Assembly: GCA_023150615.1 (NCBI GenBank)
Contig: JAKLKO010000006.1
Coordinates: 62,001-126,000 of the forward strand
Origin: Phycisphaerae bacterium
Lineage (GTDB): Bacteria; Planctomycetota; Phycisphaerae; UBA1845; UTPLA1
DNA: 64,000 bases
Reading direction: 5' to 3'
Under the pieces are notes generated by a model. It ran no database searches. It had not been told where the DNA came from and saw only the letters and a list, made by a program, of their open reading frames with translations. Position numbers and translations under genes: made by a program. Positions 40,374-45,313 of this stretch are shown here, piece by piece; position 1 is the first letter of the stretch, and each line of letters starts with the position of its first letter.

Positions 40374-41804
40374 TCAGGCCAGAACGGCGGGCGCGGCGGC
40401 GGGATCGAGACGGCGCGTGCCGAAACGCTCCGCACCGGGGGCGGCGCCGTGGAAGATCCGCGTCTTGCGGCCCGTCCGGCTGGTGAAATCGGTGAGGATG
40501 CGGTTGAGCGTCTCGTGGCAATCTGCGCGATCGGCCATGAGGACGACCATGCCGCCGCTGCCGCCGAAGCCGGTGACCTTCGCGCCGTACATCGGCAGGG
40601 TCTTTCCGGCGGCGCGGACGGCAGTCGCGATCTGATCGGTCTCGACGGCGCCGATGCCGCAGCGCTGGCTGTAGCTCCAGTGCGACGCGTACATCAGCTC
40701 GCCGGCTCGGTGCAGCGCCGCCGGGTCGCTGGTGCGCCGCGCACGGGCGATGGTCGTCGCGAACTCGTGCACGCGGTGATTCTCGTAGATGAAGTGCTCG
40801 ACGCGCGAGCGAATCTTGTAGACCTTCTCCGCGCGGACCTGCGCCACGTCGCGGAAGGAACCCCCGTACGTCTCAACGAAGGCTCTGCCGGTCATGCGCG
40901 TCGGCACGCGGTCGCGGAAGCGCTCGACGAACTCGGTCGGCGTCACGTTCGCGAGGAACGAACCATCGGCATCCACCGCCTGTCCGTCGCTGCGGATCAG
41001 GTGCTGGATCAGGCAATGCCCCATCGCGGCCGACAGGAGCGTATCGCGGTGGCGCTGCGTCGAGACGGGCCGCGCCAGTTCCGTATCGAGCGCGACGACG
41101 GCGACGCCGTCGGGCAGCTCGAGCGCGTTGTGCGTCGGGTGCGGCCGCGTGCGCACGAGAAGCAGGCTTTCGGGTTCCGCCAGCAGCGCCGCGAGCGGTA
41201 CACGCAGACTCGACGACCGACCGGCCTGCGACAGCGCGGCGCGGCACCACTCCGCCTTGGACATCGCGTCAATGGTCGCGCTTTCGAGGCCCACGACCGC
41301 CTCGGCGATCGCCGCGAGCAGCGGCGCGACGAGATCGATCTGCGCATCGGAGGGCCAATCGGACTGGAGGATCAGCGTCAGTCCGGACGGGAACCGCGCG
41401 TGCGGCAACTCGCGGACGATCCGCCGAAGCAGGGCGATGATCGCCGGTGCGAGGTGCTTCAGGTCGGTCGAGCCGGCCTCGCCGTCGGTCGGCGCGGGCA
41501 GTGGGTCGGAATTAACGACCACTGCCGCCGGAAGGGCCAATTCGCGGGGTTCTTCATGCTGGGAAAGGCGGCAGAGGTTCAGCCGGCCGTCCGCGTTGGA
41601 CGCCGCGGCGGCGGCGACGGCGACGTCGAGAGCACCCTGCAGCGCCAGGCCGCCGGCCTCCTCGACGATGCCGCCCATGACGTCGACGATGGCGGGCGCG
41701 CGGGCGACGATGGCCGTGCCGGCGGCACTTGCGTGCGGACCGACGAGGGTTGCGAGCCGCGCACAAAAACGTTCGATGTCGGTACGACAGGCGGTCTGCG
41801 TCAT
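40374..41804 (-). CDS. GHMP kinase-fold protein, L-arabinokinase/galactokinase-like, probably inactive
   Basis: A 476-residue protein. The N-terminal motif VARAPAIVDVMGGIVEEAGG matches the A-P-G-R-L-D-V-M-G-G-I-A-D-Y-S-G start of L-arabinokinase-like GHMP proteins, but with Arg, Tyr and Ser lost. At the ATP phosphate loop (G-[LV]-S-S-S-A) the protein reads PSDAQIDLVA (residues 151-160). At the catalytic G-[IV]-M-D-Q motif it reads GRSSSLRV (about 195-202), with no Asp. The third GHMP motif YGAKVTGFGGSGGMVV (406-421) is intact. The fold is thus recognisable while two of three nucleotide and catalytic motifs are gone, so catalysis is unlikely. It follows the BFN-domain gene by 46 bp and is probably cotranscribed with it. 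A regulatory or sugar-binding role is only a guess. Confidence 0.7.
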   Translation of the reverse strand: MTQTACRTDIERFCARLATLVGPHASAAGTAIVARAPAIVDVMGGIVEEAGGLALQGALDVAVAAAAASNADGRLNLCRLSQHEEPRELALPAAVVVNSDPLPAPTDGEAGSTDLKHLAPAIIALLRRIVRELPHARFPSGLTLILQSDWPSDAQIDLVAPLLAAIAEAVVGLESATIDAMSKAEWCRAALSQAGRSSSLRVPLAALLAEPESLLLVRTRPHPTHNALELPDGVAVVALDTELARPVSTQRHRDTLLSAAMGHCLIQHLIRSDGQAVDADGSFLANVTPTEFVERFRDRVPTRMTGRAFVETYGGSFRDVAQVRAEKVYKIRSRVEHFIYENHRVHEFATTIARARRTSDPAALHRAGELMYASHWSYSQRCGIGAVETDQIATAVRAAGKTLPMYGAKVTGFGGSGGMVVLMADRADCHETLNRILTDFTSRTGRKTRIFHGAAPGAERFGTRRLDPAAAPAVLA

Positions 41805-41850
41805 GGCATCCTGAACCGAATGGACCCGCTATCCGCGCCGTGCTCCGCGC

Positions 41851-42246
41851 TTAACCGCAGACTTCGCGAAGCACATCTTCCTCGACATAGATCGGCGTGC
41901 TCGTCGCCGCGCCCAGTGCGATCGCGTCCGACGGACGCGAGTCGACTTCAATCAGTCGGCCGTGATGTCGAATCATGAGTTTGGCGTAGAAGGTGTGATC
42001 TTTCAAGTCGTGGATCACAATTTTCTCGATCTCGCCCGACAGGTGCTCGATGATCGACGCCATCAAGTCGTGCGTCATCGGGCGGCTGGCGCGCAGGCCC
42101 TTGAGCCGTCTGTCGATGGCGGCCGCCTCGACGTCGCCGATGACGATGGGAAAGCCCCGTGACCCGTCCCGCTCCTTGAGTACGATGATCTGCTGATCCG
42201 ACGAGTCTTGGATGATGATTCGCGCCAGATCCACGCGGACTTCCAC
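41851..42246 (-). CDS. BFN-domain (bifunctional nuclease family, DUF151) protein
   Basis: A 131-residue protein consisting of one BFN domain: IIVLKERDGSRGFPIVIG near the start, EAAAIDRRLKGLRASRPMTH in the middle, and HHGRLIEVDSRPSDAIALGA plus IYVEEDVL at the end. These are the family hallmarks. Bacterial and archaeal relatives are widespread. A plant member has been reported to have nuclease activity, but the bacterial role is not settled. The start is GTG with GGAGG 7 bases upstream. A consensus promoter precedes it, and the GHMP-fold gene follows, so the pair forms a small operon. Confidence 0.85.
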   Translation of the reverse strand: MEVRVDLARIIIQDSSDQQIIVLKERDGSRGFPIVIGDVEAAAIDRRLKGLRASRPMTHDLMASIIEHLSGEIEKIVIHDLKDHTFYAKLMIRHHGRLIEVDSRPSDAIALGAATSTPIYVEEDVLREVCG

Positions 42247-42379: not shown

Positions 42380-45313
42380 TCACCCGAGGTCGGCCAGGTG
42401 CTGGCGGAGATCGGCGACCTGGCGCTCGAGTTCCGCCTCGCGCTGCCGCGCGCGCTCGACAACGTCCGGCGCTGCGCGCGAGGTGAATGATTCGTTCGCG
42501 AGCCGCTCGCGCTCGCGGTCGAGCGCCTCGCGCTTCGCCTCCAGTTGCGATGCCAGGCGCGCGCGCTCGGCCGCGAGGTCCACGAGTTCGCCGACCGGCA
42601 CGAACACCTGCGCCGCCTCATGCACCGAGGTCATGGACCCCGCGGGTTTCGCGGCATTGGGGCCGAAATCCAGCCGGTCGCAGCCCGCAAGCAACTGCAC
42701 GAACGAACCCTGCGTCGCGAGCAGCTCGCAGCAGCGCCGCCCGCCGCGCACGACCGCCGCCGGGAGTGTCCGCAGCGCCGGCTGCCCGGCCCGCAGCGCG
42801 TTGACGCGCGTGCGGATGTCGCGGATTGCACGGATGATGACCTTGAGGATCTCGACGTCGGACTCGACCGCATCGTCACGCCACGCCGGTTCGCGCTCTG
42901 GCCAGCGCGCCGTCGCGAGCATCGGCTCGGCGTCGTGCGGCGTTTCGATGCCGCGCCGCGGCGCGACGGCGAGCGCTTCCCAGATCGCCTCGGTCACGAA
43001 CGGCACGAGCGGATGCAGCAGGCGCAGCAGCCGGTCCAGGCCGTGCGCCAGGACCTGCCGGGCGATCCGCGCCGAGTCGCCTCCGGCGCGCAGGCGCGGC
43101 TTGATCATCTCGACGTACCAGTCGCAGTAGTCGTTCCACATGAACTGGTAGAGCGCCTGCGCGGCGTCGCTGAAGTGGTATCCGTCGAGCGCGTCGCTGA
43201 CGGACGCAACGCACGCGCTAAGGCGAGAGAGGATCCAACGGTCCTCGAGCGCGAGTGCGGCGCGTTCAATCGGCGCGAACGCGGCGTCTCCGAGACTCGG
43301 GATGACGAAGCCGGTCGAGACCTGCCAGAGCTTGTTGCAGAAGTTGCGTCCCTTCTCGAAGCGCTCCGACGTGTTGACGGTTCGACCGTCGGGCAACTTC
43401 GTCGGCTTGACCGGGACGCGGATGTCCTGCGTCTCGGTCGCCGACTCGGCAAGCGTGTAGCGCAGTGCGTCCGCGCCGTAGGCGTCGATGATGTCGACCG
43501 GATCGACGCCGTTGCCGAGCGACTTGCTCATCTTGCGGCCGTGACCGTCCTGGATGACGGCGTGGATCACGACGTCGCGAAACGGGACATCGCCGACATT
43601 GTAGAGTCCTGTAATCACCATCCGTGCCACCCAGAGCGTGATGATCTCGCGCGCCGTCGAGAGCACCGACGTGGGGTAGTAGTACGCCAGGAGCGTGGGG
43701 TCGGCCTCGGGCCAGCCGAGCGTCGAATGCGGCCAAAGGGCCGAGGAAAACCACGTATCGAGCACGTCGGAATCTTGCGTAAATCCCGCGGGCTCAGCGA
43801 CTTGCCGGAAGCGGTCTTCGAATTCCGGCCGCGGACAGTAGCACGTCCGTACTGCCGCCGGGTCGTCGCCAAACCGCTGTTCAGCCACCTGGCCGGCGCG
43901 GACCAGCTCCGCAAGCGGTGGTCCGGGAGACGGGGCGCGCGCATCGCCTGATGACGCCGCGCGACTCCACACCGGGATCCGATGTCCCCACCAGAGTTGG
44001 CGACTGATGCACCAGTCGCGCTTCTCGCCGAGCCAGTCAAGATACGTCTTGGCGTAGCGCTCCGGATGGAACCGCACGCGCCCCTCGTTGACCGCGTCGA
44101 TCGCGAGCTGCGCCAGGCCCGGCCGGCCGTGCAGCCCCGGGATCCGCGCCGCGTGCTCCGGCGACAGGTCGCCCATGCGGACGAACCACTGATCGGAGAG
44201 GTACGGCTGGATCGGCACCTTGCTGCGATCCGAATGACCGACGTCGGTCTCGTAGTCCTCGACGCGCTCGAGCAGGCCCTCCGCGTCAAGATCGGCGACG
44301 ACCTTTTTCCGCGCATCCTCGAGCTTGAGCCCCTGATGCGCGCCGCCGTTCTCGTTGATGCGCCCGTCTGGCGTCATGATGTTGAGCATGGGCAGGTTAT
44401 TGCGGAGCGCGCACTGGTAGTCGTTCGGGTCGTGCGCGGGCGTCACCTTCACGCAGCCCGTGCCGAACTCGCGCTTCACCAGCAACCCGTCGCCGATGAT
44501 GGGGATCGTCCGGCCGGTCAGCGGCAGGTGCACGCTCCGCCCGATGAGCGGCGCGTAGCGCGGATCCTCCGGGTGCACGGCGACGGCGGTGTCGCCGAGC
44601 ATCGTCTCGGGTCGTGTCGTGGCGACGACGAGGTACGCGATGCGACGATCGCCGCTCTCGCCCGAGAGCGTGGCCGGTTCGGTCAGCGGATAGCGCACGT
44701 GCCACAGGTGCCCCTTGACCGTTTCGTGATAGACCTCGTCGTCGGCGACGGCGGTCTGGAGCTGTGTGTCCCAGTTGACGAGTCGCTTGCCGCGGTAGAT
44801 CAGGCCGTCGCGGAAGAGCTTGAAGAACGTCTCGCGCACGGCCCGGGCGCACCAGTCGTCCAGCGTGAAGCGCAGGCGCGTCCAGTCGCACGAGCAGCCC
44901 ATTAGTTGAAGCTGTTCGAGGATCCGGCCGCCGAATCGCTCCTTCCACTCCCAGATGCGGCGGACCAGCTCGTCGCGGCCGAGATCGTGCCGCGTCTTCT
45001 TTTCCGCCTTCATGATCTCCTTCTCGACCGTCGCCTGCGTGGCGATGCCGGCGTGATCGGTTCCGGGCAGCCAGAGCGTGTTGAAGCCGTCCATGCGTTT
45101 GCGGCGCGTTAGGATGTCCTGGAGCGTGTTGTTGAGCGCGTGTCCGAGGTGCAGCGCACCGGTCACGTTGGGCGGCGGGATGACCATGACGAAGCGGCGG
45201 TCGCGCGGGCGGTCGTCGGGCGTCGCGCGGAACGCGTTGGCGTCCAGCCACTTGCGATAGATGCGCGATTCGGTTTCGCGCGGGTTGTAGGACTTGGAGG
45301 GGCCGTCGCTCAT
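42380..45313 (-). CDS. valS: Valyl-tRNA synthetase
   Basis: A 977-residue class I aminoacyl-tRNA synthetase that charges tRNA-Val. It has the HIGH signature as PPPNVTGALHLGHALN near residue 50 and the KMSKS signature as GRKMSKSLGN near residue 596. Between them lies the CP1 editing domain (VVATTRPETMLGD, GTGCVKVTPAHDPNDY). The anticodon-binding domain and a C-terminal coiled coil (AAERARLASQLEAKREALDR) complete the protein, which excludes IleRS and LeuRS. Length is normal. The ATG sits only 9 bases from a promoter -10, so the transcript is nearly leaderless. Confidence 0.95.
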   Translation of the reverse strand: MSDGPSKSYNPRETESRIYRKWLDANAFRATPDDRPRDRRFVMVIPPPNVTGALHLGHALNNTLQDILTRRKRMDGFNTLWLPGTDHAGIATQATVEKEIMKAEKKTRHDLGRDELVRRIWEWKERFGGRILEQLQLMGCSCDWTRLRFTLDDWCARAVRETFFKLFRDGLIYRGKRLVNWDTQLQTAVADDEVYHETVKGHLWHVRYPLTEPATLSGESGDRRIAYLVVATTRPETMLGDTAVAVHPEDPRYAPLIGRSVHLPLTGRTIPIIGDGLLVKREFGTGCVKVTPAHDPNDYQCALRNNLPMLNIMTPDGRINENGGAHQGLKLEDARKKVVADLDAEGLLERVEDYETDVGHSDRSKVPIQPYLSDQWFVRMGDLSPEHAARIPGLHGRPGLAQLAIDAVNEGRVRFHPERYAKTYLDWLGEKRDWCISRQLWWGHRIPVWSRAASSGDARAPSPGPPLAELVRAGQVAEQRFGDDPAAVRTCYCPRPEFEDRFRQVAEPAGFTQDSDVLDTWFSSALWPHSTLGWPEADPTLLAYYYPTSVLSTAREIITLWVARMVITGLYNVGDVPFRDVVIHAVIQDGHGRKMSKSLGNGVDPVDIIDAYGADALRYTLAESATETQDIRVPVKPTKLPDGRTVNTSERFEKGRNFCNKLWQVSTGFVIPSLGDAAFAPIERAALALEDRWILSRLSACVASVSDALDGYHFSDAAQALYQFMWNDYCDWYVEMIKPRLRAGGDSARIARQVLAHGLDRLLRLLHPLVPFVTEAIWEALAVAPRRGIETPHDAEPMLATARWPEREPAWRDDAVESDVEILKVIIRAIRDIRTRVNALRAGQPALRTLPAAVVRGGRRCCELLATQGSFVQLLAGCDRLDFGPNAAKPAGSMTSVHEAAQVFVPVGELVDLAAERARLASQLEAKREALDRERERLANESFTSRAAPDVVERARQREAELERQVADLRQHLADLG

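Follow-up and report, generated by a model that had tools for sequence, protein, structure and literature searches.

Non-catalytic GHMP proteins are already known. In Saccharomyces, Gal3p (PDB 3v5r, 3v2u) is a galactokinase-fold protein that has turned into a sensor and regulator rather than an enzyme; it still binds galactose and ATP, and it controls Gal80. XOL-1 of C. elegans is a nematode sex-determination protein for which we know of no nuclease partner. PMC11349215 describes it as a GHMP-fold protein with a regulatory role and no detected ATP binding. BFN (bifunctional nuclease, DUF151) proteins such as TM0160, Rv1829 and the plant BBDs belong to a family that is widespread in bacteria, archaea and green plants, and whose exact molecular function remains unknown according to PMC7249048. 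Our search of the open-access literature (subscription journals and preprints lay outside its scope) returned no GHMP partner of a BFN protein and no description of a GHMP pseudokinase–BFN pair, including in Planctomycetes. A conserved bacterial non-catalytic GHMP protein tied to a nuclease gene therefore appears to be new.

The window analyzed here is a stretch of 64,000 nucleotides from a Phycisphaerae bacterium, and its reverse strand carries, at positions 40374–41804, an open reading frame with an ATG start that encodes 476 amino acids without interruption, as a preliminary description of this DNA had claimed. We use X as the name for this gene and its orthologues in the order (78 orthologues). 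The best solved structure for window X is 'AbGHMP' (PDB 9ulx/9uly), a protein for which we found no mention in the open-access literature searched; homology to AbGHMP and to arabinokinase/galactokinase-type kinases runs over the full length, as in GHMP superfamily members (E = 2.9e-50 for window X, 7.9e-112 for the family profile). The NCBIfam galactokinase model TIGR00131 matches residues 31–447 of window X with E = 4e-12, at 45.7 bits versus the 226.65 needed for its equivalog cut-off, and Pfam gave nothing above threshold (sub-threshold GalKase_gal_bdg, E = 0.51). Judged by these matches, window X is a relative by descent of the galacto/arabinokinase-type GHMP kinases, and its GHMP fold is predicted from homology; an AlphaFold model of X built from three sequences has a mean pLDDT of 51 and is too poor to place the C-lobe signature described below. 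The relation to Gal3p is distant, with a weak match of the X family profile (3e-14), and X resembles XOL-1 in its GHMP fold and probable regulatory role without demonstrated sequence kinship. A search with X for an intact paralogue in the genome carrying the window gave X itself as the sole match at E ≤ 1e-3; the only further GHMP_C match is L001.

Window X shares the DVMGG of motif 1 and the GAKxTG of the motif 3 region with AbGHMP and the arabinokinase-type kinases, whereas it has neither the GVSSSA nor the GVMDQ of AbGHMP. Motif 1 (residues 35–52, RAPAIVDVMGGIVEEAGG; 41649–41702, reverse strand) was previously read as an altered arabinokinase-like VMGGI form, and it does retain DVMGGI while the Arg of PGR is changed to Ile (R39I) and the Asp of ADY to Glu (D48E). 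In place of a GLSSSA-like motif 2 phosphate loop (residues 151–166; 41307–41354, reverse strand), QIDLVA stands at residues 155–160 where GVSSSA is expected, again in agreement with the preliminary description. The region of the catalytic Asp (residues 193–205, AGRSSSLRVPLAA; 41190–41228, reverse strand) has V202 in the Asp column, where MDQ or an equivalent would be found in a GHMP kinase, and there is no Asp at all between D179 and D232, whatever the alignment. The absence of the Asp was thus described correctly before; the SSSL (197–200) given as its replacement differs in detail from V202 but is the same place within alignment error, the region being degenerate. The glycine-rich motif 3 (residues 405–421, MYGAKVTGFGGSGGMVV; 40542–40592, reverse strand), which reads GAKVTGFGGSGG, is mostly kept; it had been called fully conserved, but two Gly columns are substituted, with F413 in a column that is Gly in 92% of the arabinokinase-type comparison set and S416 in one that is Gly in 97% of the 78 family members. 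Homology matches and motif columns together support the identification of a GHMP relative without phosphate loop and catalytic Asp, and we infer from them that window X has lost phosphotransfer activity.

The distribution of X was established with a profile of 23 rows that matched 86 of the 114 genomes of the order at E ≤ 1e-20, some of which carry ordinary galactokinase-type genes. Retrieval of the strong matches yielded 79 loci; one of these (L155 in genome G089), a candidate exception to the pairing with BFN described below, is an arabinokinase-type paralogue with GVSSSA and GVMDQ, hence not X, and its removal left 78. Using family labels of this analysis, with f1 as the family of the window, X occurs in 17/17 genomes of f1, 11/13 of f5, 1/1 of f6, 1/1 of f7 and 48/51 of f8, and none was found in f2 (3 genomes), f3 (1) or f4 (27). 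The orthologues are 409–596 aa long and full-length in 77/78 cases, the 409-aa one being stopped by a contig end. The phosphate loop and the Asp are both lost in all 17 members of f1 in the family alignment and both retained in f5 (11/11), f6 (1/1) and f7 (1/1). Among the 48 members of f8, 47 have lost the phosphate loop: 29 lack both features, 18 have just the Asp, and L121 comes through a loose test for the two, as does one f8 row outside these 48, the paralogue L155. Partial chemistry may therefore persist in some lineages. Within f1 the phosphate-loop columns show unrelated sequences (DLGRxx, DLGSPC, QIDLVx), and the residue in the Asp column is A, V, P, L or T. Orthologues that share the losses of window X, which the preliminary description had proposed to look for, are thus found throughout f1, and intact motifs, which in close relatives would have spoken for recent decay, occur only in the other families f5, f6 and f7.

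Two trees were built, both from 71 chosen rows of the sequences collected. In the first, calculated without the motif columns, X forms a clade (99/97), f1 forms a clade (100/100), and f1 with f7 and f8 makes up a crown group branching after f6 and f5 (97/91), with f7 falling weakly inside f8 (80/68). The second tree, which includes Poribacteria, agrees, with f7 beside f8 at weak support (88/61); the Poribacteria are not the sister of X in this tree, as class-level arabinokinase types stand between (97/87). Under parsimony on the second tree the loop needs 3 changes and the Asp 8. The simplest reading of these trees is that the ancestor would have been an intact kinase and that the loop disappeared in f1 and in f8 by separate events, the independence of the two losses being only probable because the placement of f7 is weak in both trees. 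Alternatively, the loop may have been lost once, with f7 misplaced.

Immediately upstream of X lies a gene for a BFN protein (41851–42246, reverse strand; 131 aa, GTG start), separated from the X start by a spacer of 46 nt (41805–41850, reverse strand). The BFN-domain neighbour of the preliminary description is real, with PF02577 matching at E = 1.4e-37 and 128.4 bits versus a gathering cut-off of 27. Aligned to TM0160 (1sj5), residues T58, H59 and D107 fall on the putative catalytic triad Thr57, His58 and Asp115 given by PMC7249048, a residue mapping that takes the deposited chain to carry a tag of 12 residues. Conservation of these three positions is ≥90% among BFN proteins, whether X is present or not. 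With the putative triad kept, the nuclease side of the pair looks ordinary and potentially active, the BFN of the window being of the same kind as TM0160, Rv1829 and the plant BBDs. Four BFN residues (R9, F32, P33, V129) track the presence of X; we give them no weight because X-bearing and X-less families also differ in descent.

The gene pair itself is conserved across the order: BFN stands directly upstream of X on the same strand in 78/78 X-bearing genomes. An automated neighbour scan found a clean upstream BFN in 75/78, and in the other three BFN overlaps X because the longest possible X start runs into it. Over the 78 loci the gap has a median of 28 nt, is ≤100 nt in 74 and is zero or negative in 15, and from this spacing and conservation we infer cotranscription. 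A promoter and terminator scan of both strands found none, and an Rfam search gave no match. BFN occurs in 106/114 genomes of the order, and 28 of these 106 (in f2, f3 and f4) have no X; BFN therefore does not need X. In f1 and f5–f8 there are 78 genomes with both genes, 5 in which neither was found (G026, G057, G075, G089, G108) and none with one alone, a count that is weak by itself because several of the five genomes are incomplete and adjacent genes vanish together.

Other neighbours are less constant than BFN. In the window BFN has a valyl-tRNA synthetase gene (ValS, 42380–45313) on its upstream side, and an ftsK gene is found downstream of X; ValS holds its place in 14/17 f1 loci and in f1 only, and PanB takes that place in 41/49 f8 loci and in f8 only, so that around X the BFN gene is the only one widely common between families. 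A cluster of 24 loci that lies over BFN on the opposite strand also recurs near X and is most likely a shadow reading frame. As a control, 20 BFN loci of the X-less families f2, f3 and f4 were compared, and their largest common neighbour was present in 4/20. For comparison outside the X set, 44 GHMP loci were taken, of which 40 belong to the class and phylum, 3 are additional arabinokinase-type loci within the order and 1 is from Poribacteria. None of the 44 has a BFN gene nearby within fetched flanks that vary in length and sometimes end at contig ends. Adjacency of this kind shows shared function or regulation, not binding; since it holds across the order, the two products probably work together, and on the evidence of gene order their partnership is well supported.

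To estimate the constraint on both genes, dN/dS was calculated by the Nei-Gojobori method for 16 pairs. The ratios for X range from 0.05 to 0.39, indicating purifying selection in every pair (f1: 0.13, 0.05 and 0.27, plus 0.39 for the window versus L090; f5: 0.14 and 0.19; f8: 0.07–0.27 in ten pairs), and those for BFN are lower than for X in every pair (0.02–0.16). By these values the pseudokinases are under much the same constraint as the intact f5 pairs, while the pair of the window and its nearest relative L090 (dS 1.1) is looser and the least constrained of the 16. Ratios were also computed for the N- and C-halves, of which the N-half value for L143/L147 is meaningless as dS is saturated. 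Mean identity is higher in the C-half than in the N-half (56 versus 36% in f1, 51 versus 29% in f8, 72 versus 56% in f5), so that selection has preserved chiefly the C-half. X therefore presents what a non-catalytic GHMP regulator would be expected to present, a fold predicted by homology to be GHMP that is under selection without its catalytic site. Recent decay is ruled out by losses common to 17/17 f1 genomes together with purifying selection, and the kept non-catalytic function proposed in the preliminary description gains support from these common losses and from the pair in 78/78 genomes.

The most strictly conserved parts of X are two C-lobe signatures, at residues 329–344 (YKIRSRVEHFIYENHR; 40773–40820, reverse strand) and 371–385 (MYASHWSYSQRCGIG; 40650–40694, reverse strand). 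Residues R332, S333, R334, E336, H337, Y340 and R344 of the first and S374, H375, W376, S377, Q380 and R381 of the second are present in 97–100% of the X family. Seven of them (S333, R334, E336, Y340, W376, Q380, R381) occur in 99–100% of the 78 X proteins versus 0–12% of 24 arabinokinase-type relatives, and this set is equally strict in X proteins with and without kinase motifs. A relative was found in 36/39 genomes around one Poribacteria genome, and most of 13 such relatives have an intact loop, the Asp and RSRxEHxIYE, some of them also W376, leaving Q380 as the sole signature residue that is still X-only among the rows compared. No BFN stands beside the Poribacteria GHMP genes in 16 loci within the flanks, and in one Poribacteria genome a BFN gene lies ~207 kb from the GHMP gene. 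The idea that the signature is a surface for contact with BFN is weakened by S333, R334, E336 and Y340 in these proteins without a BFN neighbour. Because Poribacteria kinases without a BFN neighbour have much of the signature, its residues are more likely the lining of a ligand pocket also used by kinases.

The Poribacteria neighbourhoods gave no sugar pathway as a clue to the substrate; in L237–L252 the GHMP genes cluster with RND adaptor, TolC-like, PorV-like and YCF48-like genes in up to 12/16 loci. Two further Poribacteria genes (L032:5845–7341 and L228:1483–2985) have lost the Asp motif with the phosphate loop intact, the reverse of the f8 proteins that keep the Asp alone. Elsewhere in the class, a second GHMP paralogue of family f11 (L175–L187) has an eroded loop (QASSTA, ASSTA) and keeps an Asp in a VDALT motif; no BFN was found nearby, and by its motifs it is another lineage drifting from the kinase consensus. 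At the level of the phylum, strongly diverged GHMP relatives of family f82 (L196–L202) have no recognizable loop or Asp motif and are probably a further independent pseudokinase lineage with no BFN link. One locus (L046:4846–7701, reverse strand) encodes a protein of 952 aa whose C-terminal half contains an arabinokinase-type GHMP part, a layout that resembles plant arabinokinase.

The above analyses are consistent with X being a GHMP-fold pseudokinase that serves as a dedicated partner of BFN, senses a ligand through its C-lobe and regulates BFN by contact, and we hold this reading as a whole to be about evenly balanced between right and wrong. Ligand sensing and control of BFN would proceed as follows: X would descend from a kinase that was at work beside BFN before phosphate transfer became dispensable, and a C-lobe pocket formed by RSRxEHxxYExxR and SHWSYSQR, with the DVMGG of motif 1, would have been kept. 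The ligand bound in this pocket would most likely be a small molecule resembling a sugar or a nucleotide, and X would signal the ligand state to BFN through direct contact, making the nuclease more or less active. X would thereby act like Gal3p or XOL-1, without phosphorylating anything. A more specific and more tentative form of this proposal casts X as the bacterial equivalent of Gal3p: once a sugar kinase but no longer able to use ATP, X would sense a metabolite and thereby switch the co-encoded BFN, the chemistry having been discarded at least twice (in f1 and f8); Gal3p differs in being eukaryotic and acting on Gal80, and window X has instead lost the phosphate loop altogether. If true, this would be a metabolite-gated nuclease module kept across an order, with the ligand pocket and the partner retained.

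The main rival to a ligand sensor, and an unlikely one in our estimate, is an RNA- or DNA-binding adaptor whose ferredoxin-like C-lobe grips the nucleic acid while it is cut by the small BFN domain. Near-invariant R332, R334, R344, R381, Y340 and W376 in the C-lobe, a partner that is a putative nuclease, and the reported resemblance between the C-terminal domains of GHMP proteins and RNA-binding domains (Luz et al., as related in PMC11349215) would all suit such a role, as would the charge of the C-half (+8 in the window; means of +3.6 in f1, +3.7 in f5 and +1.6 in f8, versus −1.6 in 12 arabinokinase-type proteins). However, this charge excess is modest, a near-strict dozen residues looks more like a pocket than a nucleic-acid surface, and much of the signature is present in Poribacteria proteins that have intact kinase motifs and no BFN neighbour. 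The signature is as strict as an active site, and X might have kept or gained an enzymatic activity without the classical loop and Asp, with BFN merely in the same pathway; the loop and Asp retained in f5, f6 and f7 and the Asp retained in 18/48 f8 proteins point in this direction. We regard such an enzyme as quite improbable, since the f1 phosphate-loop columns are unrelated to each other, the f1 Asp column varies among five residues, and no alternative active-site constellation is evident in X.

Contact between BFN and X is itself a conjectural step of the favoured reading, and the families f2, f3 and f4 have kept BFN in the absence of X, so the two genes might share an operon for regulatory reasons only, their proteins never touching and X having a separate non-catalytic role. 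This appears improbable as well, given that over five families no other neighbour is as lasting as the BFN–X pair and that X-less BFN genes have no fixed neighbour. A decaying sugar-kinase pseudogene, to which the lost catalytic motifs and the highest dN/dS of the 16 pairs (0.39, in the window pair) might point, is already refuted by full-length frames in 77/78 orthologues, identical losses in 17/17 f1 members and purifying selection in every pair, and we assign it next to no probability.

As a dedicated and strictly paired partner of BFN, X would offer a direct handle on the control of BFN/DUF151 proteins. Moreover, in this clade the partner gene stays the same while the kinase next to it is intact in some lineages and dead in others, a natural series in which the passage from enzyme to regulator can be studied.
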